Shown here piece by piece: positions 46 to 16,964 of a DNA stretch of 18,359 bases. Within the stretch, counting starts at the first letter, position 1. Each line of letters opens with the position of its first letter. Location of the stretch: the NCBI GenBank assembly GCA_001017865.1, contig LATQ01000231.1:1-18359 (forward strand). Reading direction: 5' to 3'. The translations under genes were made by a program, and so were the position numbers. Source of the stretch: Rhodococcus sp. IITR03 (GTDB lineage Bacteria > Actinomycetota > Actinomycetes > Mycobacteriales > Mycobacteriaceae). The notes beneath the pieces were generated by a model. It was given only the letters and a program-made list of their open reading frames with translations, made no database searches and was not told where the DNA came from.

Positions 46-282
46 ATGACCGTTCAAATCTCGTACATCGACGCATCTGGCGAGCGCATCGTCCTCGGTC
101 GTCTCGGCTCATTCATCGAAGCCGCTGAGGCCGTCACCGACCACGCAGAGATCCTCGAGCTGCAACACGGTAAGGCTCTACTCGTCGAGCCGGTCGGTCC
201 GATCGTGACCGAATTCGCGGACGGCACGGTCCTGCGCTACAGCCTCGAGGTTGTCGATCAGGACGACCCCCTTCTGACCTGA
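46..282 (+). CDS. Small hypothetical protein (78 aa)
   Basis: I do not recognise this protein. It is acidic, has no membrane segment or signal peptide, and contains a repeated beta-strand-like pattern (residues 3-20 and 55-70), suggesting a compact alpha/beta fold. The frame runs from an ATG to a TGA and is followed within two bases by a 10-bp perfect hairpin, which supports it as a real gene with its own terminator. The ribosome-binding site is weak. It is the only plus-strand gene seen in the mobile element and converges on the DUF3800 gene across about 840 bp. Its upstream region is cut by the window edge, so it may belong to a longer plus-strand operon. Confidence 0.5.
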   Translation: MTVQISYIDASGERIVLGRLGSFIEAAEAVTDHAEILELQHGKALLVEPVGPIVTEFADGTVLRYSLEVVDQDDPLLT

Positions 283-310: not shown

Positions 311-984
311 CGGCAACCGTGTCGCTCATCGACACACCTGCTTCGTCTGTTGCCGTGATGAGTGAGGTAACTGCTCACTCCAATCCGCCGCACCCGACCT
401 GTTGGCGTCGTGCTGGTGTCCGCTTGGCGGAGACCAGCACGGCCCTGCACGCCGCGGTCCGCGAGCCTCTGCAACCCTCGTCGTTCCTCTCCCGCTGCCC
501 GACGTAAACCAGCAGCCGCCGGTGTTCCACTATCCCCACAACCGGGTGGGGCGCTTCCACGCCGATGTCAGGCCTGGCGTCGTGGGAGTCCAGCACAGCC
601 ACGCCCGTATTCGGTGACGTGGCTACAGGTGTTGGCCTGACGCGATACGGGGACGTGGTTCGTGGGAAATTTCCGGGGTGGGGTCATCGACACCGGCACC
701 CTTGGGTGCTCCTTGCGGTGAAACACAGCCCGCGGAGCGGCCCGCTTCGAGGTCGTTACTCCCCCAAGCTCCCGGCACCGGGAAACTTCCCCCAGTCGGA
801 GAACGTTTCCCACCATCGGGAACCGCAACCCACTGGGTTGCGGCTCATCTCAATCACTTTGTCGACGCAGACAAATTCGCTAGTCACGGCTTCGTCGCGG
901 AGATATTGACGTACCAGAGGCCACCGACTCGATCTGCAACGAACGAAGGCGCCACCCAGGGGGTAGCGCCTTCGCAGAGTATGT
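311..984. other. Non-coding, dyad-rich region
   Basis: I see no convincing gene here: the short open frames have no ribosome-binding sites and overlap each other on both strands. The stretch is dense in inverted repeats: 360-380 (7-bp stem), 412-438 (12-bp stem, one mismatch), 534-551 (6-bp), 665-674 (GGAAATTTCC), 696-709 (GCACCC/GGGTGC), 780-791 (GGGAA/TTCCC), 807-822 (TTCCC/GGGAA) and 823-843 (CCGCAACCC/GGGTTGCGG, 3-nt loop). Three of these share the GGGAA/TTCC core. It could be an origin, an operator cluster, or the body of a structured RNA. A weak plus-strand promoter candidate is TTGTCG (859-864), 16 bp, TAGTCA (881-886). Confidence 0.4.
944..974 (-). terminator. Hairpin, probable terminator of the DUF3800 gene
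   Basis: CGAAGGCGC (944-952) pairs perfectly with GCGCCTTCG (966-974), and CCC/GGG can extend the pairing inside the 13-nt loop. It lies about 150 bp past the stop of the minus-strand DUF3800 gene. It could equally be part of a plus-strand RNA that ends at the next hairpin. Confidence 0.45.
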
Positions 985-1126: not shown

Positions 1127-1840
1127 CTACGAAGTCAGGGTGAGGACATTCACTCTGTTGGTGCGTTGATCGGTCACAAACGAAGACACCCCAAACGCCG
1201 ACGCCAGTCGCCGTGCCACTGTCGCCTTGTGATTCCCTGAGTTCGGATCCTTTGAAACTCGCTGGTGGGCGACGGCCCCAGCCACGAGATCGGCGAGCTG
1301 CAGGCCATGACTACTACGTGAGTCAGCGCATACGACAGAGACAAAACCGATGCTCTTCAGTCGCTGATTAGCCATGCTCCGGACGGTCTCATCAAAGGCG
1401 CTCTCCACGGGGGTCGACCGCTGGTCTATGACAGCCACCCCCAACTCTCGGGCATTCAGTGAGCCCACCAGCAACTTCGCTGTGACCCGTGCATGGGTGA
1501 TCCACTCTGCCTCACTTGAGGAAAACGGACTTGAAGCCGCGGTTCTATCAACTACCGTCGCCAGCAAGCGAGCATCCGACTCTTCCAACGCATCGATAAT
1601 GGCGTTGTACATGGGCAGGCGACCCCGGGTGATAGTGCTGAACTTCAACTCATCCTTGTGCTCCGTGTACCGATCACGAATCGCGGCGATGGAACGCAAC
1701 AGTTTGCCGGGTTTACGCAGTTTCACCGCACCCACTACAAAGAACGAACCGCCGCTTGCTTTCGAGGTGCTCTCGTCCACAAAGAAGGTCGAACAGGGGT
1801 AGCTGGTGGGAATGTGAACCCGCTCGTGCTGCGTCGCCAT
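1127..1840 (-). CDS. DUF3800 family protein (putative RNase H-fold nuclease)
   Basis: The 237-residue product matches DUF3800. It has an early acidic FFVDES motif (about residues 19-24), a central HKDELKF segment, a strand ending in AVIDQ, and the hallmark LQLADLVAGAV helix near the C terminus, which supply the expected acidic residues. DUF3800 proteins are predicted to have an RNase H-like fold and are often found in mobile elements and defence contexts; the substrate is unknown. I chose the ATG at 1840 because AGGAG lies 4 nt upstream; a longer frame reaching 1885 lacks this. Base composition is lower than in the neighbours: two 60-bp samples gave 52% and 57% G+C, against 65% in a chromosomal sample. 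It is probably cargo acquired separately from the element's core. Confidence 0.82.
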   Translation of the reverse strand: MATQHERVHIPTSYPCSTFFVDESTSKASGGSFFVVGAVKLRKPGKLLRSIAAIRDRYTEHKDELKFSTITRGRLPMYNAIIDALEESDARLLATVVDRTAASSPFSSSEAEWITHARVTAKLLVGSLNARELGVAVIDQRSTPVESAFDETVRSMANQRLKSIGFVSVVCADSRSSHGLQLADLVAGAVAHQRVSKDPNSGNHKATVARRLASAFGVSSFVTDQRTNRVNVLTLTS

Positions 1841-2097
1841 CGAACTCCTGAAGTCGGTCCGCCAAGTCCCGCTCACTCGCGGCAAGAAGGCACAATCGGC
1901 GGAAGCATAACCGAGTACTCCGACGTCATGGATGCCACCTGTTGGCGTCGCGCCCTAGAGATGCTTTCCGCTTACCTCTTGTCGTGATGGCCGCGGCGGC
2001 GATGCTCAGCCGATGCAGCAGCCGGCAATCTCAGCGCTCCCTGTATCGCACGTAGAGCGACGAAAACCCACCCGGTACACCGAGGGTAGGGCAGAAA
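1841..2097 (-). other. Upstream region of the DUF3800 gene
   Basis: I see no gene here. The segment lies between the DUF3800 start and the terminator of the main operon, so it must hold the DUF3800 promoter. TATGCT on the minus strand (about 1904-1909) is a possible -10 box, but I see no good -35 box. It contains ACCTGTTGGCGTCG at 1937-1950, repeated at 397-410. Confidence 0.35.
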
Positions 2098-3559: not shown

Positions 3560-3724
3560 TCAGGCCACCACACCACCCGGCCACGGATTGGTGCGCGCCC
3601 ACTCGCGTCGAGCAGCGCACCAGGCGTGCACTCGTTCGGCTGTGGTGCCCGACCAGTCACCGGTGTCGAACGTCCACAGCATCGGCGGCACCTGCCCGGC
3701 CTCGTCGATCCGCCGGCGCCTCAC
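3560..3724 (-). CDS. Small Trp/Arg-rich protein coupled to terminase small subunit (54 aa)
   Basis: The GTG start at 3724 overlaps the terminase stop as GTGA. The span is exactly 55 codons including TGA. The protein begins with a basic run (RRRRID) and contains a pattern of tryptophans with AWCAARREWARTNP in its second half. Small proteins with a W...AR..W pattern are, from memory, common next to actinophage terminase genes, but I know of no assigned function. The strict translational coupling suggests that it works with the terminase small subunit. Confidence 0.6.
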   Translation of the reverse strand: MRRRRIDEAGQVPPMLWTFDTGDWSGTTAERVHAWCAARREWARTNPWPGGVVA

Positions 3725-4055
3725 GCCGTACCCCGAATCCCGTACACCCCTCGAGGTGCACGCACCGGACGAGAGGCATCCTCGACAGGGATGTTCAAGG
3801 CAGCGAGCAGACGAGCCAACACGATGCGCTGCTGCCTGAGTTCGGAGACGGCAGGATGCACGCGCCTGCCTGCGGTGAGTTCTGCATCGGGCCGTCATCC
3901 TTCACCACAGCCTGCAACTGTTCGATCTGGTCGACGGTTCGCACCGCTTCCCGCAGGACAGCAACTTCGTGGGTGTCGAGCTCGTACTCATCGAGCACCG
4001 CGTTCCACAGGCGGCGACCCACAGCGGTGCATCCGGGTGGGGGTTTGGGCTTCAT
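3721..4055 (-). CDS. Phage terminase small subunit, P27-like (frame broken once)
   Basis: This DNA-recognition subunit of a phage packaging motor matches the actinobacterial P27-like pattern: an N-terminal PPPG..AVGRRLWNAV segment, then DEYELDTHEVAVLREA and a DQIEQLQAVV helix. After one frame change near 3870 it continues with a GRRVHPAVSELRQQR segment and an LARLLAALNIP helix. The whole is 111 residues if one base is restored; the 335-nt span is one short of 112 codons. The ATG at 4055 has GGAGA five bases upstream. It lies between the HNH gene and a coupled 54-residue gene. No large terminase follows, which is the signature of satellites that redirect a helper's packaging. Confidence 0.8.
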
Positions 4056-4170
4056 CGGGTCTCCATAGGTCGGGGCGTTTGGCCGGCGGGGGGATAGATC
4101 CTCAACGCCGAGGGGAAGCGGAGCGGGGTGGGGCGAGGAGGTGGCCCCTGGGGGCGTCGCTGCTGTGCGG

Positions 4171-4485
4171 TCACCATTGCTGTGAGGTTGGGAGCGGCAG
4201 GCTTGTGGTGGGGACTTGGAAGGGTTCGCCGTATGCCTTGCCGCCCTTGGCGAGGTTGCAGGGCCGGCACGACAGCACGAGGTTGTTGGGGTCGTGTGCG
4301 AGGTCGGGGCGTTCCACGTATGGGATGAGGTGGTCGATCTCGATTGCGCCGGGTTCACCACGCTTGGCTTTCGGGTCCAACGCTGTTCCGCAGTGGTGGC
4401 ATTGGTGTGTGCGACTGCTGATGAGGCGTGTCCTGATGCGCTTCCATCGTGTGGTTGCGGTGCGTGGTGTTGTGGGGCGCGGCAT
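4171..4485 (-). CDS. HNH endonuclease
   Basis: The 104-residue protein has a textbook HNH core. A first zinc pair is Cys29 and Cys32. The catalytic Asp51-His52 sits in an IEIDHLIPY strand, Asn68 in DPNNLV, a second zinc pair at Cys73 and Cys76, and Asn77 with Lys80 in CNLAKG. Phage HNH proteins of this size beside a terminase commonly stimulate cos cleavage and packaging. Its position just upstream of the terminase small subunit fits that role. The ATG at 4485 has GGGAGAC about five bases upstream. The N terminus is basic (PRTATTRWKRIRTR) and may bind DNA. The frame is intact. Confidence 0.88.
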   Translation of the reverse strand: MPRPTTPRTATTRWKRIRTRLISSRTHQCHHCGTALDPKAKRGEPGAIEIDHLIPYVERPDLAHDPNNLVLSCRPCNLAKGGKAYGEPFQVPTTSLPLPTSQQW

Positions 4486-4578
4486 GGTGTCTCCCGTTGT
4501 GGTGGGTGGCGTCGGTCCAGGAGGGGAAGCCGACGCCCACCCGTTCCCCGCACGGATGCAAGGCGTGCGGGAAGTGTG

Positions 4579-5369
4579 TTAGACCATCTCGTCTTCGGGG
4601 TCGATCTCGACCCGCACCGAGCCTGCGTACCGGCCTTCACCGCGCATGTACTTCACTTCGATGGGTGCGGGTCGGCGGTAGGGCTTGAAGGTGTCGGGGT
4701 GTGCTGCTCGGATGGTTGCTCCGAGTCGTGCGATCGCTCCCCACTTGCCGGTGCGTCCGGTGTTGGTTTCCCAGGCTTCCCACAGGCGCCTGCGGTGGTG
4801 TCCTGTGGTGTCGACTGTGAGGGGTAGCAGTGCGTCGTTGTCGTGGGCGCGGAGGCCGGCGAGTACTGCTGCTGCTCGGAGTGCGGTGAGTTGCTGGTCG
4901 AGTTCGACGGCGTGGATTGCGGCGTCGGTCCAGGCTTTGCGGGCCTTCTCGGACTGGGTCACCATCTGCTCGGCGGGCAGGTCGGGGTCTGCTGCGTTCA
5001 CGGCTTTGGTGAACGCAGTGGCGGTGGCGGTGAACTTGTCGGCGAGGGTGCGGTAGTTCGCATCGGCGACAGGCTCGTAGGCGGCACGGAGAGCGAGCAG
5101 AACAGGGGCTTTCAGCTCTTTGGTGAGGTCTGCTTGTTCGACGGTTCCGCAGCGTTCGGCGAGGGCCAGTGCCGTAGCTGTGTCAGGTCGCTGGTGTCGT
5201 CGGGTGTGGTGATCGCGTCGGCGAGCACGGTGCTGATGTCGTGGCCGATGGCGAGGTACCGCTTCCAGCGTTCGTTGACGGCGGTGTAGGTGTCGGGCAC
5301 GGTGCCGCCGGCGGCTGCGACGGTGTCGATATGTTCGCGGAGGAGGTCCAAAGGGTGCTGTCCGAGCAT
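4579..5369 (-). CDS. Hypothetical protein, ~263 aa (frame broken once)
   Basis: Two open frames join at about 5175-5185. The upstream half runs to a DDTSDLT segment and the downstream half continues as ATALALAERCGTVEQADLT. The 791-nt span is one base short of 264 codons, as expected from a single lost base. The protein is mostly alpha-helical, with a central alanine-rich helical part, and ends in a basic and aromatic segment (KPYRRPAPIEVKY) and an acidic tail. I do not recognise a family. It lies 12 bp after the 80-residue gene and 93 bp before the HNH gene, so it belongs to the same operon, at the border of the replication and packaging genes. A DNA-binding or packaging accessory role is possible but unsupported by motifs. 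Confidence 0.6.
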
Positions 5370-5381
5370 GATGGTGTGTCC

Positions 5382-5624
5382 TTAGAGTTCGCGGCTGCGG
5401 TTGAGTTTCGCGCCGATGATGCGGGCGAGTCCTTCGTCGTCGTTGAGGGCGACGGGTTGCTCGTTCGGGTCGGGTTCGGGGGCGCGGTTGAGTTCGCGGT
5501 GGATGAGGTCGCGCACGTTGGCGGGGCCGGGGTCGGTTCCGCGGGCTTCGGAGATGGTGCGGCGTAGCTCGTCGTCGGTCATGGCGGCGAGCATGTCCAG
5601 CAACTCGTGCCGGGTGGGGCTCAT
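5382..5624 (-). CDS. Small hypothetical protein (80 aa)
   Basis: The ATG at 5624 overlaps the previous stop as ATGA. The protein is acidic and helical, with LDMLAAMTDDELRRTIS near the start and NDDEGLARIIGAKLNRS at the end. It has no cysteine cluster, signal peptide or membrane segment. I recognise no family. Being the last member of the run of strictly coupled genes, it probably assists replication or regulation. Confidence 0.6.
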   Translation of the reverse strand: MSPTRHELLDMLAAMTDDELRRTISEARGTDPGPANVRDLIHRELNRAPEPDPNEQPVALNDDEGLARIIGAKLNRSREL

Positions 5625-5980
5625 GCGGCCCGTCCTTTCAGGTGTTCGGTGACGGCTGCGCGGGGGATCAGCCAGCGGCCTGCGTGGAGGCGTCCGTCGA
5701 GTTGGGGTGCGAGGCGGCGTGCTTGGCGTTCGCTGCATCCGAGCATTCGTGCCGTCTCCTGTATGTCGAGCAGTTCGGTTGAAGTGTGTTGTGCGCGTGT
5801 GGGTTCGGTGTCCGTTGTTCCGGGTTCGGTCACGGCTGCTGCGAGTTCGGTGAGTTCTCGGGGGACGGGGTAGCCGTTGCGGTGCCGTGCTGCGATGGCG
5901 ACTCGTACGGCGTAGCGCACGGTGGTGAGGGCGTCTCCGGTGAGCAGGATGACACCGGGGGCGAGGTGCTGCACGGTCAT
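5621..5980 (-). CDS. HTH (excisionase/MerR-like) DNA-binding protein
   Basis: The 119-residue protein has an N-terminal half (LTTVRYAVRVAIAARHRNG) of unknown fold. The C-terminal domain of about 50 residues is typical of HTH_17/excisionase-like proteins: LLDIQETARMLGCSERQARR forms the helix-turn-helix, and a short wing GRLHAGRWLIPRAAV follows. The start at 5980 overlaps the previous stop as ATGA, and its own stop overlaps the next start in the same way. It probably binds element DNA as a regulator or a second recombination-direction factor. Confidence 0.72.
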   Translation of the reverse strand: MTVQHLAPGVILLTGDALTTVRYAVRVAIAARHRNGYPVPRELTELAAAVTEPGTTDTEPTRAQHTSTELLDIQETARMLGCSERQARRLAPQLDGRLHAGRWLIPRAAVTEHLKGRAA

Positions 5981-6150
5981 GCTCGGCCCTGCCTCAGTTT
6001 TTCGGCGGCGTCGACGAGTTGGTCTGCGAGGGCGAGTGCTTCGGACGGGCGCATGGCGATGGCGACTCCGCTGAACTCGAAGAGCACCGGGAAAGGTTGT
6101 CCGGGGTTGGCGGTCACTTTCGCCTTGCTGCGGTGGACGACGAGTCTCAT
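5977..6150 (-). CDS. Small hypothetical protein (57 aa)
   Basis: This short gene is framed by ATGA overlaps on both sides, with the WhiB stop and with the HTH start, which is the best evidence that it is real. The protein opens with a basic strand (RLVVHRSKAKV), then a hydrophobic beta segment (PVLFEFSGVAIAM) and a helix (SEALALADQLVDAAEKLRQ). It looks like a small alpha/beta protein of the kind often encoded beside WhiB and replication genes in actinophages. I cannot assign a function. Confidence 0.65.
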   Translation of the reverse strand: MRLVVHRSKAKVTANPGQPFPVLFEFSGVAIAMRPSEALALADQLVDAAEKLRQGRA

Positions 6151-6449
6151 GCTGCGGGGGTGTCCTTTCGTCCGGGGCGGCCGGGCAGGCCGTGGACCTT
6201 GCCGCCCCACATTCCGAGGGGGTGTTCCTGTTCGCTTGCTGCGGTTCGGCACAGGCCCTGGACCGGGCAGCGGGTGCATTCGGTTCGTGCCCATGCCAGT
6301 CGTGCCGATCGCTCCTCGGCGCTCTCGTCGTCGATCTCGGCATCGAACAGGGGGTGCCGGCCGCTGCATCGGGCACCGGTGAGGCGGTCGTCGACGAGGC
6401 TTGCGATGGGGTCGGGGATCTGCGGAAGCCGTGAGGCTCGTCGGGTCAT
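6147..6449 (-). CDS. WhiB-family transcriptional regulator
   Basis: The 100-residue protein carries the four cysteines that hold the WhiB iron-sulfur cluster: Cys28, then Cys58, Cys61 and Cys67 in the pattern C-x2-C-x5-C. It also has the glycine-rich turn GMWGG (79-83) and a basic tail (RPGRK) for DNA contact. WhiB proteins bind the primary sigma factor and tune promoters. Phage copies such as that of mycobacteriophage TM4 are known to influence host gene expression and superinfection. The gene overlaps the ATPase stop and the next start as ATGA, so it is made in step with the replication protein. The frame is intact. Confidence 0.92.
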   Translation of the reverse strand: MTRRASRLPQIPDPIASLVDDRLTGARCSGRHPLFDAEIDDESAEERSARLAWARTECTRCPVQGLCRTAASEQEHPLGMWGGKVHGLPGRPGRKDTPAA

Positions 6450-7667
6450 GCGGCTGCGCTCCTCGCGTTGTCGTGCGCTTCATCTCGGATGGAGCAGATG
6501 GTTTTTCCGGCTGCGGGGAAGAGGAAGGGTTGTCCACATACGACGCAGCGAGCAGTGTTGTCCCCTTGTCCGGGGGCTGTCCCCACTGTCCCGTTGTCCC
6601 ATTCCCCTTCGGTTCGTCCCTTTCGTCTTCCGATTGGGACATTGGGACAGTGGGGACAGGGGTGCTAGGGGGTCCGTACAGTCCGCGGCCGATCTTCCGT
6701 AGCCGCTCCGCATCCGCCAGACGCGCCAAGTATCGGCGTGCATCCGGAATCCCGAGAGCATCCGCCACTTCCTTCGGTGAGACACCACCGGGATAGCCGC
6801 TGACGTACCGGATGATTTCGGCGCTACGGTCCCCGATCCCGTCCGTGGACTTCCGTTCCGCAAGAGCCGCGGCGGCAGCCTTGAGGCTTCCTCCATCGAG
6901 CGTCCAGGCACCGTCTCGTGATGTGATCGCATACTCGGCTTCGATCACATCGCGGCCGGTCACAGCGAGGGATGCCTGATCGTCGTGGCGTTTGCGGGCG
7001 AGCACGAGGATGAAGTCAGCGGCGCCGGCGATGCCCTGTGTCCCGGACACCGCATCGACGAAATCGCTCGATTCGGCCTTGCGGGTGTGGTGCACGGCGA
7101 GCACGGTCGAACCGGGTACCGCATCCGCGAGTGCCTTGAGTTTGCCGGCGACTCTGTAATCGCGCTGATAGTCCGACTCCCCCGCGGCCTTCGGCGGCAT
7201 CACCTTGCCGAGCGTGTCGAGCACGACGAGGGGTGCGTCATGCCGATGCTGCTCCAACCACTCCCCGACCAGCATGGGAACTTCGTGGGCCTGGGCGTCG
7301 ATGATGACGTCGAGTTGTCCCGGGATTGGGACACTGTCCCCTAGCAGGATTCGGCACCGTGATTGCAGCGTCGGTATCCGTCCTCGAGCGCGAGGTACAG
7401 CACCGGGCCGCGACGAACCGAGATGCATCCGAGTGCCCGACCACCGTCTGCTTTCGCCAGGGCCGCACCGAGCACGAACCAGCTCTTGCCGGCCTTCGGT
7501 GGGGCGACGATCAATCCGAACCCTTCGGGGATCACTCCATCGATGGCCCAGTTCAACGGCGGGAACTGTTGCGCGTCGAGCCAAGCTCCCGACCGCAGTC
7601 GACTTGCCAGCAGTGAGTGGGAAGAGTCGTCGAACGGTGGAACGTCGAGGTATGGATCTACGCTCAT
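6446..7667 (-). CDS. RecA-like AAA ATPase, RepA-type replication protein (frame broken twice)
   Basis: This is a RecA-fold ATPase of the AAA_25/RepA type, the usual replication helicase or loader of actinobacterial mobile elements. Walker A is APPKAGKS (residues 55-62), Walker B LVVLDTLGK, and a VLAVHHTRK motif follows. A winged-helix domain (EIIRYVSGYPGGVSPKEVAD to GLYGP) ends the core. The frame changes near 7368 (after LEDGYRR, continuing LQSRCRILLGD) and again near 6550-6590. The second change opens a tail with CVVCGQPFLF and a TICSI cysteine that could form a small zinc site. The 1222-nt span plus two restored bases gives 407 residues. Start and stop both overlap neighbours as ATGA. Confidence 0.82.
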
Positions 7668-8069
7668 GCTGCCCCCGTCCCGCGGTGCTGGCGACGGCTG
7701 GTCTGGGCGTGGTCGCGTCGTCCGGCGTCGTATCCGAGTCGGTACGCTTCGGCGCCCCAGTCGATGAGGGAATCGACGCGATCACCGGATTCGGCGTAGG
7801 CCACACGTTCGTCAGGTCCACGTTCGGCGGCCAGATGCCCTGTAGGGCGAGTGTGGCGACCACGGCCCACTTCACCCCGTCGCCTGCGTTCTCCCATGCC
7901 TGCGAGCCGATGAGGGCAGTTGCCGGAGGTTGCCATTTCCGTCGTCGCGGATCTTGAGGATGTGCGGCATCACAAAGTCTGCGAGCACCGCCGAGGACGG
8001 GATCGGGCGTGTAAGGCCGGGATCGGTCCCGAGCACCGCATTCAGCAGCTCGTTTTCGTGGGTGCTCAT
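7664..8069 (-). CDS. Hypothetical protein, ~135 aa (frame broken twice)
   Basis: Three open frames join into one protein. It starts MSTHENELLNAVLG, continues across a break near 7925 into ALIGSQAWENAGDGVKWAVV, and across another near 7800 into YAESGDRVDSLIDWGAEAYR, ending just before the ATPase. The 406-nt span becomes 136 codons when two bases are restored. The ATG at 8069 overlaps the previous stop, and the TGA overlaps the ATPase start, both as ATGA. No known motif stands out. The middle is hydrophobic and tryptophan-rich but not clearly membrane-spanning. Its fixed place just before the ATPase suggests a replication accessory role. Confidence 0.62.
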
Positions 8070-8338
8070 CGACGCACCCCCTCACGGGCGGCGCACTTCG
8101 GACCCATGTGGGCTTGGAGTGACTTCGGGGATACGAGAGGGTGCCCACAGGCGGTGCAGCGCACTGCGACCCAGTAGCCGGCGCTCTGCACGATCTCGAG
8201 GGCCGCTGCGATCTCGCGGTCCGTGGGCGTAGGCACGTGGTAGCGGGGATCTTCGCTAGAATCGGTGTATCCCGCCGCCATTTGGGATTTCGGATGCGCC
8301 TCGTTGCCCGCGGGGCGCATTCTGCTGTTCGAGGTCAT
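8066..8338 (-). CDS. Small zinc-binding protein (DUF6011-like)
   Basis: The 90-residue protein has a disordered N-terminal half and a C-terminal metal site: VRCTACGHPL gives the first Cys pair, and SLQAHMGPKCAAR gives a His and the last Cys. The C-x2-C ... GP-x-C layout is that of DUF6011-type modules common in actinophage early genes. The role is unknown; nucleic-acid binding is likely. It is coupled to genes on both sides by ATGA overlaps. Confidence 0.68.
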   Translation of the reverse strand: MTSNSRMRPAGNEAHPKSQMAAGYTDSSEDPRYHVPTPTDREIAAALEIVQSAGYWVAVRCTACGHPLVSPKSLQAHMGPKCAAREGVRR

Positions 8339-8535
8339 GCAGACGCACCCCCAGCCGCAGCCATTGGGCGCATCATTGCCTCGATCTCGTCGAGGTCCAC
8401 ACGGATCATCCGGGGGCCGAACCGGTATCCGGTGATACGGCCCGCTGAGATGTAACGGCGGATTGTCTTGCTGCAGACGCCGTATTCCTCAGCGGCCTGC
8501 GGTATCGAAACCAGTCGACGCTTCGACTTATTCAC
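8335..8535 (-). CDS. Excisionase-like HTH protein (Xis/AlpA type)
   Basis: A 66-residue protein with the excisionase helix-turn-helix LVSIPQAAEEYGVCSKTIRR (residues 8-27), then a wing (ISAGRITGYRFGPRMIRV) and an acidic helix. Proteins of this kind steer the integrase towards excision and often repress or activate early promoters. It is the first sizeable gene of the leftward operon and lies 260 bp downstream of the integrase stop. GTG at 8535 is favoured because its first bases overlap the stop of a putative leader peptide as GTGA; GTG at 8541 is an alternative. Confidence 0.8.
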   Translation of the reverse strand: MNKSKRRLVSIPQAAEEYGVCSKTIRRYISAGRITGYRFGPRMIRVDLDEIEAMMRPMAAAGGASA

Positions 8536-8579
8536 TGGCACGGTCTCTCCCAAAGCGAAACGGAAGAACACGAGCGCAC
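8532..8579 (-). CDS. Putative 15-codon leader peptide before xis
   Basis: A very strong Shine-Dalgarno sequence, GGAGGTGA (8590-8583), stands 6 nt before GTG at 8579. From there a 15-codon frame (start RSCSSVS) ends at TGA, which overlaps the xis GTG as GTGA. The same SD could serve a TTG at 8581 with a 17-codon frame. The SD is too far from the xis start to serve it directly. The SD is itself part of a hairpin (8584-8600), so translation here could be switchable. Confidence 0.38.
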   Translation of the reverse strand: MRSCSSVSLWERPCQ

Positions 8580-8583
8580 AAGT

Positions 8584-8600
8584 CACCTCCCTGTGAGGTG
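8584..8600 (-). promoter_or_regulatory. Hairpin masking the leader Shine-Dalgarno
   Basis: CACCTC and GAGGTG pair around a 5-nt loop. On the minus strand the second arm is the SD of the putative leader peptide. Confidence 0.4.
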
Positions 8601-8705
8601 CTGTGCTGCTCGACGTTCTTCCGCCTGGGAAACCTGCGCCGTTCGCCTTATTGCGCGGTGGGACCTAGACCTCCTGGGTCCGTATCGGTACTCCGCCGCA
8701 TATTC

Positions 8706-8733
8706 GGGCTAGCGTGCTGTGTTCGGTTGTCAA
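8706..8733 (-). promoter_or_regulatory. Candidate promoter of the xis-replication operon
   Basis: On the minus strand TTGACA (8733-8728) is a perfect -35 box, followed after 16 bp by TAGCCC (8711-8706), a poor -10 box. Transcription would start near 8699 and give a leader of about 120 nt before the putative leader peptide. This 8580-8795 stretch has no other gene. Confidence 0.42.
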
Positions 8734-8743
8734 TCACTGTCCA

Positions 8744-8770
8744 CTTAATCGGTCAGCAAGACCATTAAAG
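8744..8770. promoter_or_regulatory. AT-rich inverted repeat between int and xis
   Basis: CTTAATCGGTC and GACCATTAAAG form an imperfect dyad around AGCAA, just upstream of the TTGACA box. It could be an operator for the element's repressor or the Xis protein, or a terminator for int. No T-tract follows on either strand. Confidence 0.4.
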
Positions 8771-8795
8771 CACACGTCTTTTCACACCCTGCTCG

Positions 8796-9944
8796 CTAAG
8801 CGTCATCGCGAGTCGCTAGCTGTGACAGCCGTTCCGCGATCTGAGCGTCACGTCCTGCTGCAGCGTGCTGGTAGCGCATCGCCATGTTCGGGGTCGAGTG
8901 CCCCAAACGTGCCATGAGTTCTTTTGTGGTCGCGCCGGCCTGCGCTGCGAGAACTGCGCCCTGGTGCCGGAGGTCGTGCAGGCGGAGATCCGGGCGGTCG
9001 ATCTTCTTTGCGGCCTGTTCGAAGTGGTATCGCAACGTCCACTCCCCTAGCCGGTCCCCGTCCGTCGATGTGAACAGCAGCGCATTCTTCCCACGGCTCA
9101 CATGCTCGGCGAGGTGATCCACCACCGCAGTACGGACGTGTGGGGGTACGGCAACGTCTCGGACGCCTGCGGTCGACTTCGGCGCACCGACGTGTGGTTG
9201 CCCTTTCACGAACACGACAGCCCGGCGGATCCGCACCACACTGCCGTCCGCAGTTACGTCGCTACGGCGTAGCTCGAGCAGTTCCCCTCGACGGAGACCA
9301 CACCAGGCTCCGAGTTTCACGAGCAACCGGAGGTGATCCGGCATCGCGTAGGCGAGCGCGTCGAGTTCGGAGAGGGACAACAACCGGATTTCATGGGCAC
9401 GTTCGGTGCGTCCAGCTCGAGGGATACGGCACGGGTTTGTGGGGATGAGTCCGTCGTCGACTGCCGTAGCGAAGATGGTCCTCAGTAGCGCGTAGACACG
9501 GGCGTTACGTGTCTTCCCCGTCGATGTCCTGTTCGGACCGGGGGTGTCGCGGAGATCGGCGAACCATACGCGGATCTGGTCTGGAGTCACCCCGTCGAGC
9601 GGGAGTGCTCCAAGGGTCGGTTCGATGTGTTGTTCGAACATGCGTCGGTAGAGGTGCCTGGTGGACTCTTTGAGGTGTCGATGAGTGATCCACCGATCGG
9701 CGTAATCCCCGAGGGTAAGCACGGGTGCCGGCGGTTCGTCGAGGTCCCGTTCGATCGGTGGGGTCCACACGTCCAGGTCGATGAGGCGCCGTTCGGCGTT
9801 CAACCATCCGATTGCGTCGTCCTCGGCGGCGAACGTGCGAGGTGCTTTGTAGAGCAGTCCGTCCGGTGCGGTGTAGTTCGCCTGCCAGCGCCCAGAGGGG
9901 AGCTTGCGGAGACCCCCAAACGATCGCTTCTTCCGACGCGCCAT
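8796..9944 (-). CDS. int: Tyrosine recombinase / phage integrase
   Basis: The 382-residue integrase inserts the element at the tRNA site 145 bp from its start. The N-terminal arm-binding part (RSFGGLRKLPSGRWQANY) is followed by a SAM-like core-binding domain (about 76-175). The catalytic domain has all key residues: Arg218 (GLRRGE), Lys256, His323 and Arg326 (LHDLRH), His349 (LGHS) and the nucleophile Tyr358 (RYQH). The ATG at 9944 is preceded by GAGGGG with about 4 nt spacing; an upstream extension lacks a site. The gene reads away from the attachment site, so after integration it is driven from its own upstream region, where short repeats lie. The frame is intact. Confidence 0.95.
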   Translation of the reverse strand: MARRKKRSFGGLRKLPSGRWQANYTAPDGLLYKAPRTFAAEDDAIGWLNAERRLIDLDVWTPPIERDLDEPPAPVLTLGDYADRWITHRHLKESTRHLYRRMFEQHIEPTLGALPLDGVTPDQIRVWFADLRDTPGPNRTSTGKTRNARVYALLRTIFATAVDDGLIPTNPCRIPRAGRTERAHEIRLLSLSELDALAYAMPDHLRLLVKLGAWCGLRRGELLELRRSDVTADGSVVRIRRAVVFVKGQPHVGAPKSTAGVRDVAVPPHVRTAVVDHLAEHVSRGKNALLFTSTDGDRLGEWTLRYHFEQAAKKIDRPDLRLHDLRHQGAVLAAQAGATTKELMARLGHSTPNMAMRYQHAAAGRDAQIAERLSQLATRDDA

Positions 9945-9954
9945 ATCGCCCCTC

Positions 9955-10015
9955 GTGCAGAATATGTGCAGAACCAGCGTCATCCTATGACACGTTGCGT
10001 CCACAACTGTCCACA
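9955..10015. repeat. Helically phased direct repeats between int and att
   Basis: GTGCAGAA occurs at 9955-9962 and 9966-9973 (period 11), and GTCCACA at 9999-10005 and 10009-10015 (period 10). The 9-mer ACTGTCCAC at 10006-10014 recurs at 8736-8744 near the xis promoter. Spacing of about one helical turn beside the attachment site suggests arm-type integrase or Xis sites. The integrase promoter must also lie here, but I cannot point to clear boxes. Confidence 0.45.
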
Positions 10016-10089
10016 TGTAGATTCACGTATGACCAGCGGATGCGGTACAAGTTCCCTGGTCAACGATCGCAGAAGATCGGCATTCACGA

Positions 10090-10113
10090 CAGGTTCGAAT
10101 CCTGCCGGGGGCA
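10090..10113 (+). other. Attachment site: 3' end of a tRNA gene (remnant)
   Basis: CAGGTTCGAATCCTG is a T-arm with the TTCGAAT loop, followed by the acceptor strand CGGGGGC (10106-10112) and discriminator A. The upstream 50 bases do not form the rest of a tRNA and lack the matching GCCCCCG 5' strand, so only the 3' end is present. The acceptor sequence resembles actinobacterial tRNA-Arg, but identity cannot be fixed from this fragment. It marks the right junction of the element. Confidence 0.8.
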
Positions 10114-10284
10114 CAGATCGGGTTCCGCCGCATCCGGGAGCACTGGCGGACCCACTTCCTCGAACATCACGGGCATCTTCCCGCCCACGCATCACGGTTC
10201 GATCTAGTCGGCCATCCACCGTCCGCGCGACAGTTAGCATCCACAACGATGCCGCTCGACGACGACGGAAATCGAGGACCCCAC

Positions 10285-11097
10285 ATGAACATTCGGCCTC
10301 GTGCCCGACATCTCGCCGTGATCGTCTCGGCGGCGGTCCTCGGATTGTTCGTCCTCCCGCCCCCGCGGTCGCCGGGGGCGTCTCGGGCCTCGTCGAAGGA
10401 CCCGCTCATCCCGTCGGGGCGGGCAACGCCCGCACGTACGTCACCGTCGACGAGGAGGGCACGCCGGCCACCATCGGGGTGCGACTCGATGCGGCCGCCC
10501 TCGACGACCTACCCAGTGCCTGATGCCGGTCACCGAGGCTACGTGCTCGAGTTGCCCGAGGAGGCGGCCGCCACCGCGTTCGACCACGTCACGGTCGACT
10601 GGAACTCGCACGGCCACGATCCCCAGCACGGCTTCGACGTCCCGCACTTCGACGTCCACTTCTATCTCCTGGATCGGCCCACGGTGGAGTCGATCCATCC
10701 CTTCGCCCCCGGCTACATCCCGGCCGCGGTCCGCGTGCCCGACCCGCGTTACATACCGGAGGGGTACGCACCGTCCGGGGATCCGCTGACGTCGACCGTC
10801 GCGGGCATGGGACTGCACTGGGTGGACACCACCGAGGCGGAGCACGATCCGGCGGCGGGACACCACCTCACCGAGACCGTGCTCTACGGCACGTGGGACG
10901 GACGGCAGGCGTTCATCGAACCCATGCTGAGCCGCGAGTGGCTCGCGACGCGGCCCGCGCACCACGAGGAACTCCGCCTGCCCGAGGCGTACCAGCGCGG
11001 AGGCCTCTACCCCACCACCTACTCCGTGTGGTGGGACGAGGCGTCGCAGACGTATACGGTCGAACTCGGCGGGCTCACGATGCGCGAGGCGTCGTAG
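10285..11097 (+). CDS. Secreted TTHB210/DUF5602-like protein (frame broken twice)
   Basis: First chromosomal gene past the junction. An ATG at 10285 with GAGGA upstream opens a signal peptide (RPRARHLAVIVSAAVLGLFV). The frame changes near 10365 in a C/G run, passes through PAVAGGVSGLVEG to LDDLPS, and returns near 10515-10525. The mature part has a histidine/aspartate cluster (HGHDPQHGFDVPHFDVHFYL), then MGLHWVD and LYGTWDGRQAFIEPM. These match, from memory, the TTHB210-like (DUF5602) family of exported proteins of unknown function. Total length is about 270 residues. Confidence 0.62.
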   Translation: MNIRPRARHLAVIVSAAVLGLFVLPPPRSPGASRASSKDPLIPSGRATPARTSPSTRRARRPPSGCDSMRPPSTTYPVPDAGHRGYVLELPEEAAATAFDHVTVDWNSHGHDPQHGFDVPHFDVHFYLLDRPTVESIHPFAPGYIPAAVRVPDPRYIPEGYAPSGDPLTSTVAGMGLHWVDTTEAEHDPAAGHHLTETVLYGTWDGRQAFIEPMLSREWLATRPAHHEELRLPEAYQRGGLYPTTYSVWWDEASQTYTVELGGLTMREAS

Positions 11098-11118
11098 ACC
11101 GGTCGGCCGAACGGGGAC

Positions 11119-11490
11119 TCAGTCCAGCGGGGAGACACGGATGAGGTTCCCGTCCGGGTCCGACACCACGAACGTCCGCCCGAACACCTCGTCGTGCGGC
11201 GCCTCCACGACCGTCGCCCCCTTTCCTACCCACTCGTCGTGGATCGCATCGACTGCGGCGGCCGATCCCGGCACCATCAGGCCCACCTCCGAGAACCGCG
11301 GCGCGTTCGCATCCATCGTCTCCGCGTGACCCGACCACAGTGCGAACAGCACTCCCGGCGTCACTTCGAAGGACACGTAGCGCGGGGTCGCCAGTTGCGG
11401 GATCATGCCGAACAGCTCGCTGTAGAAGCGGGTCGCGCGGTCGACGTCGGTCACGTAGATCAGGAACAGATTGGGCGACGACACGGTCAT
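11119..11490 (-). CDS. VOC family (glyoxalase/bleomycin-resistance fold) protein
   Basis: The 123-residue protein has the two beta-alpha-beta-beta-beta modules of the VOC fold: IYVTDVDRATRFYSELFG at the start of the first, and EVGLMVPGSAAAVDAIHDEW at the start of the second, ending FVVSDPDGNLIRVSPL. Such proteins bind a metal and act as lyases, dioxygenases or drug-binding proteins; the substrate cannot be read here. AAGGAG lies 6 nt before the ATG at 11490, so this start is preferred to the ATG at 11496. It is divergent from the WYL regulator across 99 bp containing a dyad, so that regulator probably controls it. Confidence 0.85.
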   Translation of the reverse strand: MTVSSPNLFLIYVTDVDRATRFYSELFGMIPQLATPRYVSFEVTPGVLFALWSGHAETMDANAPRFSEVGLMVPGSAAAVDAIHDEWVGKGATVVEAPHDEVFGRTFVVSDPDGNLIRVSPLD

Positions 11491-11539
11491 CGACATCTCC
11501 TTCCGGTAGGCGGTGAAGGCTTCGAGGACTACCGTGACA

Positions 11540-11571
11540 CCGAAACCCGACAGTTCCTGTCGTGTTTTCGG
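11540..11571. promoter_or_regulatory. Extended dyad, candidate operator of the WYL regulator
   Basis: CGACAG (11548-11553), TTC, CTGTCG (11557-11562) is a perfect 6-3-6 inverted repeat. It is flanked by CCGAAA (11540-11545) and TTTCGG (11566-11571), a second near-symmetric pair. It sits midway between the divergent VOC and WYL genes. Confidence 0.5.
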
Positions 11572-11589
11572 AAAGAGATCGGACAGTCG

Positions 11590-12571
11590 ATGAACCGGCC
11601 GCAGCGGTTGCTGAGCATGCTGGTCGTCCTGCAGGCCCGCAGACGGGTCACGGCCGCCGAACTCGCGGAGGAATTCGGCGTCTCCGAGCGCACCGTGCTG
11701 CGCGATGTGGAAACGCTTGCTGCCGCGGATCTTCCGGTGGTCGCCGAACGCGGCAGGTACGGCGGCATCGTGATGCTCCCCGGCCGGCAGACCGACCTGA
11801 ACCGGCTCAACGCGTCCGAGGTGGACGTCCTGCGGCGCCCTGGGGGTCGACATGGGCCGGGCCCGGCAACTCGGTGTCGACGCCGCCGCGCGGGACGCCG
11901 TCCACAAGCTCACCGCACGCGCCCGGCGCACGCCCCCACCGCACGCGAGAACCGAACTGCTGCCGCTGACGGAGGTGGTCACCGTCGACAACCGGGATGG
12001 TTCGCCACCGAGACCGTGGGCCGACGTCGCGGCGCTCACTCGTGACCTGCGGCGCGGCCGGCAACTCGCCATCACGTACCGCTCGAGCGGGCACCGCGAC
12101 GAACGTGAGATCGTCGTCGATCCCTACGGTGTGCTCTCCCGCGCGGCCGTTGGTATCTCGTGGCCGACGATCAGGGACGACCACGACTGTTCGCGCTGAC
12201 CCGCCTGAATGCGTGGACAGTGCTCGACCGGCCTCGACACCTGTCCCCCGGCCGGACCTGCCCGCCCTGGCACGCGAACTCGGCGACGCGCTCGAACGAC
12301 GCGAGGACGTCGTCGTCACCGCCGATCTCGCGACGAACCGCCTCGACCTCGCCCGGCGCATCCTCGGTGCCGCCTGCGCGGGAGCAGCGCGGGGCCGCGA
12401 CCGGACGTCTCGCGGATCACGGTGGCCTACGACTCGATCGACGGTGTGCGGCAACTGCTGCAGTTCGGCGAGCACATCGAGATCGTCGGGCCTCCCGAGG
12501 CACGGGACCTCGTGGCGGGACTGGCCGAGTCGCTCCTCCGCCGTCATACCGCGCATCGCCGCGGCGAGTGA
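11590..12571 (+). CDS. DeoR/HTH_11-WYL transcriptional regulator (frame broken about four times)
   Basis: The N terminus is an HTH_11 domain (RLLSMLVVLQARRRVTAAEL, then SERTVLRDVETLAAADLPV). After a break near 11835-11850 the frame continues as GVDAAARDAVHKLTARARR to the WYL domain (LRRGRQLAITYRSSGHRDE). A break near 12145 restores the diagnostic GRWYLVADDQG (TGG TAT CTC at 12151-12159). Breaks near 12240 and 12400 lead through LARELGDALERREDVVVTA to GVRQLLQFGEHIEIVGPPEA, the usual C-terminal end. Full length is about 327 residues, normal for the family. Three of the four breaks equal a lost base. WYL domains sense small molecules or nucleotides. It is divergent from the VOC gene. Confidence 0.75.
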
Positions 12572-12626
12572 ACTCCCGTCGAGCCGAACCCTGTCCCGAC
12601 CGGACCCGGCTTCCTATCGTGGGGAG

Positions 12627-13399
12627 ATGTTCGACGCCCACCTGCACATCATCGATCCGCGTTTCCCTCTCGTCGAGAACGACGGCTATCTGCCGAACCG
12701 TTCACCGTCGACGACTATCTCGCGCGGGTCGCGCATTTGGGTGTCACCGGCGGCGCGGTGGTGTCGGGCTCGTTCCAGGCCTTCGACCACAGCTATCTCC
12801 TCGACGCGCTCGACCGGCTCGGGCCCACTTTCGTCGGCGTCGTACAACTTCCGGCCACCGCCTCGGACGACGAGATCGTGCGGCTCGACGCGGCGGGAGT
12901 GCGCGCCGTGCGGTTCAACGTCAGACGTGGCGGATCGGCGACGCTGTCCGACCTCGACCGCCTCGCCCGGCGGGTCCACGATCTCGTCGGCTGGCACGCC
13001 GAGTTGTACATCGATTCGCGCGATCTGGCCGAACTGCACACGACGCTCTCCGCACTGCCCGCCGTCTCCGTCGACCACCTGGGCCTGTCGCAGGAGGGCC
13101 TGCCGTCTCTGTTGCGGCTGGTGGAGAGCGGTATCCACGTGAAGGCAACGGGGTTCGGACGCGTCGACCTGCCCGTGGCCGACACGCTGCGCGCCGTTTC
13201 CGATGTGAATCCCGGTGCACTCGTGTTCGGCACCGACCTGCCGTCGACACGGGCACCGCGACCGTTCCGGGACAGCGACATCACCCTCGTCGAGGACGTC
13301 CTCGGCGACGAGCTCGCCGACGCGGTGCTGCGCCGCAATGCTTCCGAGCTGTATCGGATCGAGACCGAAACCGCTCCTGGGACTTCGGTGTCTCGATAG
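12627..13399 (+). CDS. Amidohydrolase, TIM-barrel metal-dependent hydrolase (frame broken once)
   Basis: The start MFDAHLHIIDP carries the metal-binding HxH of amidohydrolase_2-type (COG3618-like) hydrolases. A break near 12700 leads into DDYLARVAHLGVTGGAVVSG, and the barrel continues through VSVDHLGLS, HVKATGFGRVD and VFGTDLPSTRAPRPF, where the Asp is the expected catalytic/metal residue. The 773-nt span is one base short of 258 codons. Related enzymes hydrolyse lactones or decarboxylate small acids; the substrate is unknown. The start lies just after GGGGAG with a TATCGT box close upstream, so a very short or leaderless mRNA is possible. It follows the WYL gene by 55 bp. Confidence 0.78.
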
Positions 13400-13493
13400 A
13401 CTCACGCTCGTCATCGGTGCGCGGGACGCGCCGCGGTGTTCCTCGCTGTGGTCGGCTCCCGGACGTGACCTTCCCTTTCCGAGGAGCAGCACC

Positions 13494-13945
13494 ATGCCTG
13501 CACTGCGAATTCCACGTCGAGTTCTCGCCCTGGCGGCACCCGTCGCCGCCGCAATCGCATTCACCGGTGTGGCCACCGCTGCACCCCCTCAGCCCCTGGG
13601 CACGGCGATCACCATCGGCTGCATCAACCAGGCAGCCTGGCGTCGTTCACCTCGGTCACGGCGCAACCCGGACCGGACGAGGGCATCCCCGGCGGCCACG
13701 TCCTGTTCTCCACGCGGGAGGCCCTGTGGCCGGTCCCGGCAGCCGGACAGGTCAGCGTCGCATGGCTCAACCGCAACAACGGCCGCACCGGCCTCGTCGA
13801 TCTGGGCGGTGCGTACCCGAACCTGTCGACACTGGTCGACACCGGTCCGGGTGAGGTCGTGGCGACGGTGTTCGGTTCGGTGAATCTCGGCAGTGGACCG
13901 CTGTGCAACTCGACCCCCGCAGTCGGCGGTGTCGTGGTTCCGTGA
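13494..13945 (+). CDS. Small secreted protein (frame broken once)
   Basis: GAGGAG lies 7 nt before the ATG. The first 30 residues are a clear signal peptide (RIPRRVLALAAPVAAAIAF, cleavage probably after VATA). A break near 13632 shifts from TIGCINQ to SLASFTSVTAQPGPDEGIPG, and the frame continues through ALWPVPAAGQVSVAWLNRNN to GPLCNSTPAVGGVVVP. The 452-nt span is one base short of 151 codons. Two cysteines, one early in the mature part and one near the end, may form a disulfide. I recognise it only as the type of small exported protein common in Mycobacteriales. Confidence 0.68.
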
Positions 13946-13958
13946 TCTCCGGACGAGA

Positions 13959-13982
13959 CATCCGGCACCTCTGTGCCGGATG
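13959..13982. terminator. Hairpin between convergent genes
   Basis: A perfect 10-bp stem (13959-13968 with 13973-13982, core ATCCGGCAC/GTGCCGGAT) closes a CTCT loop. It sits between the stops of the secreted protein gene (plus) and ynfA (minus) and probably terminates both. Confidence 0.75.
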
Positions 13983-13987
13983 CCCCG

Positions 13988-14317
13988 TCACCGAGGCGAA
14001 TACATGATGATGGCGACGCCGGCGAGGCACACGAGCGCGCCCGCGACATCCCACTGGTCCGGCCGGAAGCCGTCCATCACCATGCCCCACACCAGGGAAC
14101 CCGCCACGAACACACCGCCGTACGCGGCGAGGATGCGACCGAAGTTCGCGTCGGGCTGGAGTGTGGCGACGAAACCGTAAGCGCCGAGAGCGATCACGCC
14201 CAGCCCCATCCAGATCCAGCCGCGGTGTTCGCGCACGCCCTGCCACACCAGCCACGCACCACCGATCTCGAACAGGGCGGCAACGGCGAACAGCAGCAAC
14301 GACTTCAGCACGGTCAC
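13988..14317 (-). CDS. ynfA: YnfA/UPF0060 family membrane protein
   Basis: The 109-residue protein has four membrane helices and the YnfA signatures: [19 protein letters not shown] in the first half, [19 protein letters not shown] in the middle, and [14 protein letters not shown] later. YnfA proteins are small inner-membrane proteins related to SMR-type transporters; the E. coli member has been linked to drug efflux. The GTG at 14317 gives MTVLKS, which fits the family start; GTG at 14311 is possible. It starts 11 bp after the six-TM partner 1 stop, so it is the last gene of the signalling operon. Confidence 0.9.
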
Positions 14318-14328
14318 GGAAGGTGACT

Positions 14329-15346
14329 CTAGCCCTGCGGCGCCTTGCCCAGTTCGATGCGGCGCACGGAGTCCCCCCGCACGAGGATCGTCACGAGGGC
14401 CCGGCGTCCCGGGGGCAGGACCCGTACCGTGACGGAACCGTGTGACACCGAGTCGAGTTCGTCGGCGACCGCACGTCGGAGGCGCGCCTGCTCGTCCGGG
14501 GGCATCACCGTCCAGGCCGTGATCGTCGAGCATCACCACGTCCACGCCTCTCGTCGAGCGCGGCGTCGGCCGCCTCGACGACCTGGGGGATCCTGCAGGG
14601 CCGGTGCTCGAAGCCCGTCCGCAGACCGTGCTCGAGCAGCACACCGGCGCGTTCGCTCCCCCGCCTCGAGTACCTCCCGGTCGCGATGCGTTCGAGGAGG
14701 GGCCGGGCCAGGGAGTCGAGCCGGTCGAGTTGCGCGTCGCGTTCCTCGAGCGCTGCAGCCGAGGCGGCCTGTTCGGCGCTGCGCTGCAACGACATCGCAC
14801 GCAGCAGTAGATGGATCCGGCGAGTGGTCGCAGGGTGAAGGCGAAGAAGGTGGACATGAGGACCGGGGCGGCGTTGACGAGCGACAGCGACAGGCCGGGG
14901 CCGATCCCCTGTCCGGTGGCGTAGGTCCAGAAGGTCGCGGTCGCGATCATGCAGGCCAACCCGATCCACGCCGCGAGGGTGCGTCCGCGCACGCACATGA
15001 AGGTGAAGACGACCGTGGACATCCCGAGCGGCCAGGTCGCGATGCCTCCCGGGGAGGGCACCGGCAGCACCGAGAAGACGAGCGCCGACGAGACCGTCCC
15101 GGTGGCGGCGAGCAGGATCGTCGCCGGCATCGGCAGCGGGTCGCCTGGGACGGTGATGAGGGTGAACGCCGCGAACGTGCACACGAGCACGGCGAGGGCG
15201 GGAGGCCAGCTCGCGGACGTGTGCTCCGCGCCGAATGCCGCCAGCACGAGGCAGACCAGGGCGTAGAGGCTCACGAGTACACGTGCGGCCGTGGTGCGCA
15301 TCCCCAGCAGGTCGCGCACGTCGCGGGTCGATTCGGTGGTCGTCAC
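14329..15346 (-). CDS. Six-TM partner protein 1, degenerate kinase-like (frame broken about three times)
   Basis: GTG at 15346 overlaps the histidine kinase 1 stop as GTGA. Six hydrophobic segments follow, from [18 protein letters not shown] to a [16 protein letters not shown] helix. Breaks near 14815, 14555 and 14510 divide the cytoplasmic part: a helical [20 protein letters not shown] segment, then [13 protein letters not shown], then [20 protein letters not shown] and a [15 protein letters not shown] end. This layout recalls a sensor kinase whose helical and ATPase-like regions have lost the phospho-accepting His and ATP motifs. It is a clear paralogue of the gene at 16965-17984, with nearly identical span. 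Confidence 0.7.
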
Positions 15347-16569: not shown

Positions 16570-16816
16570 CGTCCTGCAGAGCGCGGGCGAGCAGTGCCGT
16601 CTTCGTGGTCGCCGTACGCCCGACGCGGGCGTACTTCTCGCGGATGCGGACGATGTGGGTGCTGACCGTTGCTGCAGTGACGAACAGGCTCGCAGCCGCC
16701 TCGGACTTGGACTCGCAGAGCAGCCAGGCCCGCAGGATCTCGATCTCGCGAGCCGAGAGTGCGGGCTTCTGAGGCGCAGGCTTCTGTGCCGGGGAATGTT
16801 CGAGCATCGTCGTCAT
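16544..16816 (-). CDS. LuxR-type HTH regulator without receiver domain
   Basis: The 90-residue protein is almost entirely a LuxR C-terminal HTH: PALSAREIEILRAWLL, then SKSEAAASLFVTAATVSTHI as the helix-turn-helix, RIREKYARVGR and TKTALLARAL. There is no receiver domain and so no phosphorylatable Asp from a standard response regulator. It is flanked by kinase/partner pairs on both sides, so it is the natural output protein, but how the kinases signal to it is not evident. The ATG at 16816 is preceded by TAGGGACG. The frame is intact. Confidence 0.88.
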   Translation of the reverse strand: MTTMLEHSPAQKPAPQKPALSAREIEILRAWLLCESKSEAAASLFVTAATVSTHIVRIREKYARVGRTATTKTALLARALQDGVVSIDEL

Positions 16817-16964
16817 AGCGCGTCCCTACCGAGATGAATACATGGGATCGAACCGAGTCCCCCGACGAACTCCGTTTCGAGTGCCTACAACGTAACGGTT
16901 GAAACCGACAACTACCCAGACAGATTTTTCTCTGCCCAAGAAAATATGGGCATCGGTGTTTCGC
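16817..16964 (-). promoter_or_regulatory. AT-richer intergenic region with dyad, probable luxR promoter
   Basis: This gap separates partner 2 from luxR and is visibly AT-richer than its surroundings. It contains CGGTT-GA-AACCG (16896-16907), a 5-2-5 dyad that could bind a LuxR dimer. On the minus strand a TTGTCG box lies beside it, with no clear -10. It suggests that luxR - kinase 1 - partner 1 - ynfA has its own, possibly autoregulated, promoter. Confidence 0.42.

Follow-up and report, generated by a model that had tools for sequence, protein, structure and literature searches.

The window analysed here is an 18,359-nucleotide stretch of Rhodococcus sp. IITR03 DNA (contig LATQ01000231.1 of assembly GCA_001017865.1), and it holds an integrated element whose right end lies in the 3′ end of a tRNA-Arg(CCU) gene. 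From sequence comparison we interpret this element, with a probability of roughly 0.84, as an integrative phage satellite of Rhodococcus of about 10–11 kb, which carries a terminase small subunit (TerS) and resembles the phage-inducible chromosomal islands (PICIs). An earlier sequence-only reading of the same DNA had proposed a phage-inducible island, based upon the presence of int, xis-like, ATPase, WhiB, HNH and TerS genes and the lack of a large terminase subunit (TerL) or structural genes. The whole gene set was confirmed by Pfam or PHROG matches (Table 1), and no match to TerL, portal or capsid was found among the frames scanned from the visible part of the window, the left end of the element lying outside it. 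The island interpretation itself is supported by nine closed relatives in which no TerL was found and by the grouping of the TerS sequences. Counting from the right end, the minus strand reads int, an excisionase-like HTH_17 gene, a gene for a small Cys-rich protein, the ATPase, WhiB, a second HTH_17 gene, unassigned frames, HNH and TerS; a short frame bearing a WPGG motif and the pair of cargo genes complete the series down to position 1127.

The nearest genome in our comparison (G001) has an uninterrupted tRNA-Arg(CCT) at the site of the element's right end followed by a flank that is 99% identical to window positions 10090–18359, and therefore represents the empty site. The 25-bp core from the tRNA 3′ end is present as a single copy in the window (10090–10114); a search across the whole window gave no second attachment (att) copy, which places the left end outside. 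Of the bounds 3560..10113 that had been proposed for the element, the right one agrees with this att copy, whereas the left one does not hold: a DNA match to the closed element of another Rhodococcus genome (G008) begins at window position 79, and a protein-frame match covers 37–279. A structured RNA near the left edge of the window, described below, starts 241–1365 nt from the tRNA in all five RNA-bearing relatives with an identified tRNA. If the window conforms to these five, there is little room left of position 1 for terminase, portal or capsid genes, and attL should lie at most about 0.9 kb to the left. Compared with G001, the 8.3 kb of host flank contain 35 gap events, most of them of 1 nt, and because this indel noise matches that of the element, the frame breaks of the window cannot be read as decay; they are probably assembly errors. 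The split genes are shown unmended and their limits are approximate. At the level of the genus, 13 of 18 genomes show some match to window positions 1–10090.

In nine relatives, a tRNA 3′ end is present at both borders, which closes them as units of 8.2–11.9 kb. Three come from Rhodococcus genomes (G014, 9,510 bp; G009, 10,899 bp; G008, 8,219 bp). The other six come from a family-wide search with the intact G009 TerS, which found 46 places in 42 of 401 genomes; among 20 loci fetched around 20 of these places, six have a second tRNA 3′-end copy, at a length of 9.3–11.9 kb (G155 and G041 at tRNA-Ser, G063 at tRNA-Pro, G112 and G273 at tRNA-Val, G266 at tRNA-Arg), and the remaining 14 showed none within the fetched stretch. 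That TerL-less elements are found in several genera, at four kinds of tRNA gene (Arg, Ser, Pro and Val) and with differing cargo, is the behaviour of a mobile family. A single integrase cluster is common to all ten elements, at the intact-tRNA side in G155 and G041, and the window integrase shares 89% identity with that of G014, 87% with that of G009 and 57% with that of G008. TerS is present in seven of the nine relatives and a capsid gene replaces it in the other two, such that each of the nine has at least one of the two. The xis type occurs in six and WhiB in four, and HNH was found in none; neither HNH nor WhiB is therefore a core gene of the group. The expectation that the same gene order would recur as a free-standing unit is thus borne out for small att-bounded elements, seven of nine with TerS and none with a TerL or portal that was found, but not for HNH or, in five cases, WhiB.

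The absence of TerL rests on several searches. Large frames of the nine closed elements were picked by codon composition and scanned singly. Besides unmatched frames, they include genes for integrases, capsids, a tape measure protein (G112) and replication proteins of the AAA_25, DUF3631 or DUF3987 type, and neither TerL nor portal was found in any of the nine by these scans. Among the 129 picked frames of at least 60 aa, phrog_1496 (TerS) matches six, and large terminase and portal are absent from the 25 commonest families (36 and 108 families in all). In a recount of all open stretches of at least 330 codons, those unscanned overlap picked genes, and eight unpicked long stretches that were scanned gave no Pfam match. 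The nearest phage TerS is that of Mycobacterium phage Bernal13 (40% identity over 76 aa), where the TerS gene is succeeded by those for TerL, portal and capsid. When the Bernal13 TerL was searched against 71 fetched loci, it was found only in L079, L080, L082 and L084, each time as the immediate neighbour of TerS, and these four look like prophages. PF03354 is found within 60 kb of none of the 46 TerS places; since the Bernal13 TerL has no Pfam match at E 0.001 and its type adjoins TerS in four loci, this zero is not evidence by itself. In the genomes that carry the RNA (67 of the 401, with 110 RNA places between them), none of 11 PF03354 places lies within 60 kb of the RNA and nine have a capsid gene within 5 kb, and the same distance around the 110 holds none of the 15 PF03237 and seven PF20441 TerL places. 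The PF03237 search, made in these 67 genomes, did reveal one TerL 16 kb from a TerS (G155:C11:72151), outside the att bounds of that element.

A tree of 30 TerS rows separates Bernal13 and the four TerL-linked loci from 25 TerL-less rows, which include the window, with support of 97/94, and the same split is seen in 98% of 200 bootstrap trees. Single placements in this tree are weak because the window contributes a 72-residue piece, three rows sit on long branches and some loci are cut short by the end of a contig. The grouping apart from TerL-linked TerS is as expected if the satellite TerS has long been separate.

Several observations speak against the satellite interpretation. We saw no helper phage, induction or particle; the element's left end is missing from the window; its TerS frame is broken in two in this assembly; and TerL stands beside TerS in four of the 20 fetched TerS loci, because of which TerS alone does not make a satellite. 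Moreover, TerL families that have no Pfam model were covered by the Bernal13-type search alone, a search which overturned an earlier zero. It could be asked whether the element is a decaying prophage, which has lost TerL, head and tail genes and kept int to TerS by chance. The phage-type genes are indeed only partial, the window has broken frames, and four loci hold the same TerS family in full TerL context. We nevertheless regard such a remnant as improbable, given that seven TerS elements, at tRNAs of four kinds, are alike in size and in their TerL-less content, that their TerS stands apart in the tree and that the frame breaks are matched by the indels of the host flank.

A genomic island or integrative mobilizable element that moves outside phage particles, with TerS and HNH as passengers, would accord with the lack of HNH in the closed relatives and with the lack of a known helper, but is quite improbable in view of the TerS or capsid gene in every one of the nine; furthermore, the 25 Pfam families that are most frequent in the 129 frames (11 rarer ones fall outside that set) include neither a relaxase nor a conjugation family. 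We would be most surprised by a complete prophage with TerL, head and tail genes to the left of position 1. The left end is unseen, yet the window already reaches the RNA that lies close to the tRNA in all five informative relatives, and the three TerL families recorded in the RNA-bearing genomes have no place closer than 60 kb to any of the 110 RNA places.

Reading the window element as a satellite, we infer by analogy that a helper phage would turn it on, that Xis and Int would excise it and that the ATPase would take part in its replication. TerS, together with the HNH nuclease, would then direct the helper's TerL onto a site in the satellite DNA, which would enter helper-made particles. 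HNH nucleases beside terminase genes serve cos-type packaging, and the HNH–TerS pair would for this reason fit a cos-type site.

The TerS-type PICIs provide the closest comparison. In PICIs, the satellite's TerS binds the island's own packaging site and works with the helper TerL (PMC6092414). Features in common with the TerS-type (SaPI-type) islands, as described in the same paper, are an integrase, an excision gene, a replication gene, TerS and a small size, without TerL or lysis genes. An integrase and tRNA att site (attR and the empty G001 site for the window, both copies in the nine relatives), a replication gene (AAA_25/phrog_6357 in the window; AAA_25, DUF3631 or DUF3987 in relatives) and a TerS homologue of the sort that some PICIs carry (from phrog_1496 and the TerS tree) are all present here. 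The differences are a length of about 10 kb rather than about 15 kb, and the regulators: two HTH_17 genes and WhiB were recognised in the window, along with the structured RNA, but no Stl- or AlpA-like regulator, and HTH_3 occurs in three of the 129 frames of the relatives. The gene content of capsid-forming PICIs (cfPICIs) includes both terminase subunits together with capsid, protease, portal and connector genes (PMC10690885). Our elements resemble them in having HNH and TerS and, in some relatives, capsid and connector genes, and differ in that neither TerL nor portal was found in the window or the nine relatives. The Streptomyces phage satellites MulchRoom and MiniFlayer are likewise actinobacterial, yet encode TerL, portal and capsid and are without a primase (PMC10690885). 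Small actinobacterial elements have been said to be possible satellites (PMC10023795), and candidate Mycobacterium PICIs, including phiRv1 and phiRv2, have been proposed which are similarly small, att-bounded, often at tRNA genes and from related bacteria. These candidates are defined by an integrase and a (major) capsid gene, some with terminase genes (PMC10654092); that description fits our capsid-type relatives, in contrast to the window type, which has TerS and in which no capsid was found. That survey sought satellites through their capsid genes (PMC10654092); the lineage described here carries a small terminase instead, and does so in several genera. Our own literature search on actinobacterial, mycobacterial and Rhodococcus satellites and on an RNA of this kind, covering mainly titles and mostly papers outside subscription, yielded no description of the TerS lineage or of the RNA.

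No structural gene was found in the visible part of the window, and four closed relatives carry capsid or tape measure genes. The window and G009 have the TerS module; G014 has a cement protein (PF09956), a capsid (PF25209) and a protease-like piece; G008 has an HK97-type capsid (PF05065) and a head–tail adaptor (phrog_1290); G266 has both TerS and capsid; and G112, a closed 11.9-kb element, has TerS and a lone tape measure protein (L075:6799-9657). Since closed relatives with a related integrase carry the capsid module in the place of TerS, our comparison suggests a common backbone on which the means of capturing the helper head can be exchanged, and tape measure plus TerS may be a third module type. 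The TerS lineage shares integrase type and tRNA site with its capsid siblings, which allows a change of takeover strategy to be studied on one backbone. The G014 capsid type recurs in the four TerL-bearing loci and in L077. As separate observations, a long tape measure gene stands beside a satellite-type TerS on two viral contigs (L167:3556-8988; L168:1-939), the latter also with a capsid gene and an HNH gene before TerS; six RNA-bearing loci (L085, L123, L125, L138, L156 and L147) have a serine integrase, a capsid gene and TerS in each; and two more (L141 and L132) have capsid and portal genes with no TerL match by the searches made.

The RNA at the left of the window was missed by the sequence-only reading. 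Window positions 440–760 match eight other loci by nhmmer, and in a MAFFT alignment of the nine sequences made from sequence only, 91.5% of cells pair. Here, 28 of 67 pairs change on both sides (shuffles, 15.8; slid controls, no more than 13), the structure being derived from the same alignment. When 13 loci outside the model were independently aligned and folded, the folding energy was −25.3 kcal/mol, while 100 column shuffles averaged −2.5 and went no lower than −7.9; 20 of 33 pairs changed on both sides compared with at most seven. Across 51 matches fitted to the model, 62 of 67 pairs changed on both sides and the covariation score reached 0.54, while slid controls stayed at or below 0.10. 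Folding of the plus strand (−75.7 kcal/mol) is stronger than that of the minus strand (−55.9 kcal/mol), which we rejected as the RNA strand, and a coding sequence is unlikely because the lengths of several alignment gaps are not multiples of three. Rfam 15 gave no match at E 1 for window positions 1–1200, and for a chromosomal copy (L153) it gave one opposite-strand match only, far below the gathering score. By its covariation, which is strong, this is a structured RNA of unassigned family. We further propose that its conserved CGTCG stretch may pair with CGACG in the first hairpin loop.

A class-wide draw of 296 genomes contained six that match the RNA model, all of them from the family to which the 401 genomes belong. 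Of the 110 places, 24 have a PF05065 capsid gene within 16 kb, 12 an integrase, 11 a TerS, three a portal and none a PF03354 TerL, and 74 have none of integrase, TerS or capsid, counts for which several contigs are short and integrase matches strict. We looked more closely at 51 loci, namely the window, L070 (not among the 110) and 49 of the 110. Thirty have an integrase, capsid, TerS or other head gene, six a downstream sigma-factor gene and 15 neither; the Bernal13-type TerL occurs in none of the 51. Every locus in which an integrase was picked (26 of 26) has it on the strand opposite to the RNA and downstream of it, and the RNA occurs in satellites of both module types, TerS and capsid. The six chromosomal copies in Rhodococcus (L118, L137, L152, L153, L154 and L120) lie upstream of a gene for a sigma-70-type factor with a SnoaL-like tail, which we take to be of the extracytoplasmic function type ECF41, followed by an oxidoreductase gene. 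The gene for Ms1, an actinobacterial RNA that binds RNA polymerase, lies between oxidoreductase and HAD hydrolase genes (PMC9130861). The chromosomal copies precede the sigma-factor gene and then the oxidoreductase, a comparison made with the description of Ms1 synteny, and 67 of 401 genomes is fewer than would be expected of Ms1.

The RNA is not simply a TerS recognition site: five TerS elements (L067, L069, L074, L075 and L076) are without it at E 0.01, and the capsid-only G014 and G008 do carry it. Nor is it tied to DUF3800, for which none of the nine closed relatives yielded a gene. It is possible that the RNA is a leader of the downstream gene in the sigma-factor copies; several satellites, the window included, have no picked plus-strand gene after it. 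Between a regulatory RNA acting on host or helper and a leader of varying genes, our preferred guess is the former. More specifically, and only as a tentative proposal that we would not yet bet on, this conserved multi-helix RNA of about 260 nt could be the satellites' own trans-acting component aimed at host or helper, related to the host RNA upstream of the ECF-type sigma gene; it would be retained as the integrase (tyrosine or serine type) and the module for head takeover (TerS, capsid or both) are swapped around it. If this is true, it would represent a new class of satellite RNA. With no Rfam 15 match, strong covariation and a cellular relative, its role in satellite, host or helper is directly testable.

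Table 1. Features of the window, ordered by position
Feature	Position	Strand	Evidence
Frame matching the end of a G008 gene sited between attL and RNA	46..282	+	66% identity over 74 aa
Structured RNA (model R1)	461..724	+	covariation; no Rfam 15 match
Cargo, DUF3800 protein	1127..1885	-	PF12686 7e-12; PADLOC candidate PDC-M04A 9.8e-14
Cargo, 363 aa	2160..3251	-	phrog_4776 2.2e-7; HipA_C 0.0093, below its cut-off
Short conserved frame after TerS, WPGG motif	3566..3727	-	aligns with post-TerS frames of L067, L074, L075, L076
TerS, two frames	~3721..4060	-	phrog_1496 4.3e-8
HNH endonuclease, directly before TerS	4171..4485	-	PF01844 2.1e-9; phrog_338 8.2e-20
Second HTH_17 protein	5621..5980	-	PF12728 2.6e-6; start estimated from frame
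WhiB-like protein	~6147..6449	-	PF02467 4.9e-8
RecA-like ATPase (replication type), two frames	~6619..7667	-	AAA_25 9.8e-6; phrog_6357 8.9e-31
Small Cys-rich protein	8066..8338	-	open frame; relatives in G008, G112
Excisionase-like HTH_17 protein	8335..8586	-	PF12728 1.6e-8; phrog_66
Tyrosine integrase	8796..10016	-	PF00589 2.8e-17
attR, tRNA-Arg(CCU) 3′ end, 25 bp	10090..10114	+	25 bp identical inside intact G001 tRNA-Arg
Host chromosome, right flank	10115..18359	n/a	98.7% identity to G001, 35 gap events

The remaining genes and searches can be dealt with briefly. Neither cargo gene was detected in the nine closed relatives, and the WPGG frame has relatives in three of them by phmmer. A strong terminator had been reported, with the cargo, at the end of the element; we count six terminator-like sites in positions 1–10400 against 5.5 expected, with the longest stem at 985–1007, and so do not uphold it. 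Against phages and plasmids, the window gave no megablast match and the RNA no blastn match. In viral contigs, two exact RNA patterns had no matches, no relative of the window integrase was confirmed, and two relatives of a satellite TerS were confirmed. Finally, in the host flank, histidine-kinase-like frames at 13988–18359 show small-indel breaks relative to G001, a sign of error-prone assembly.

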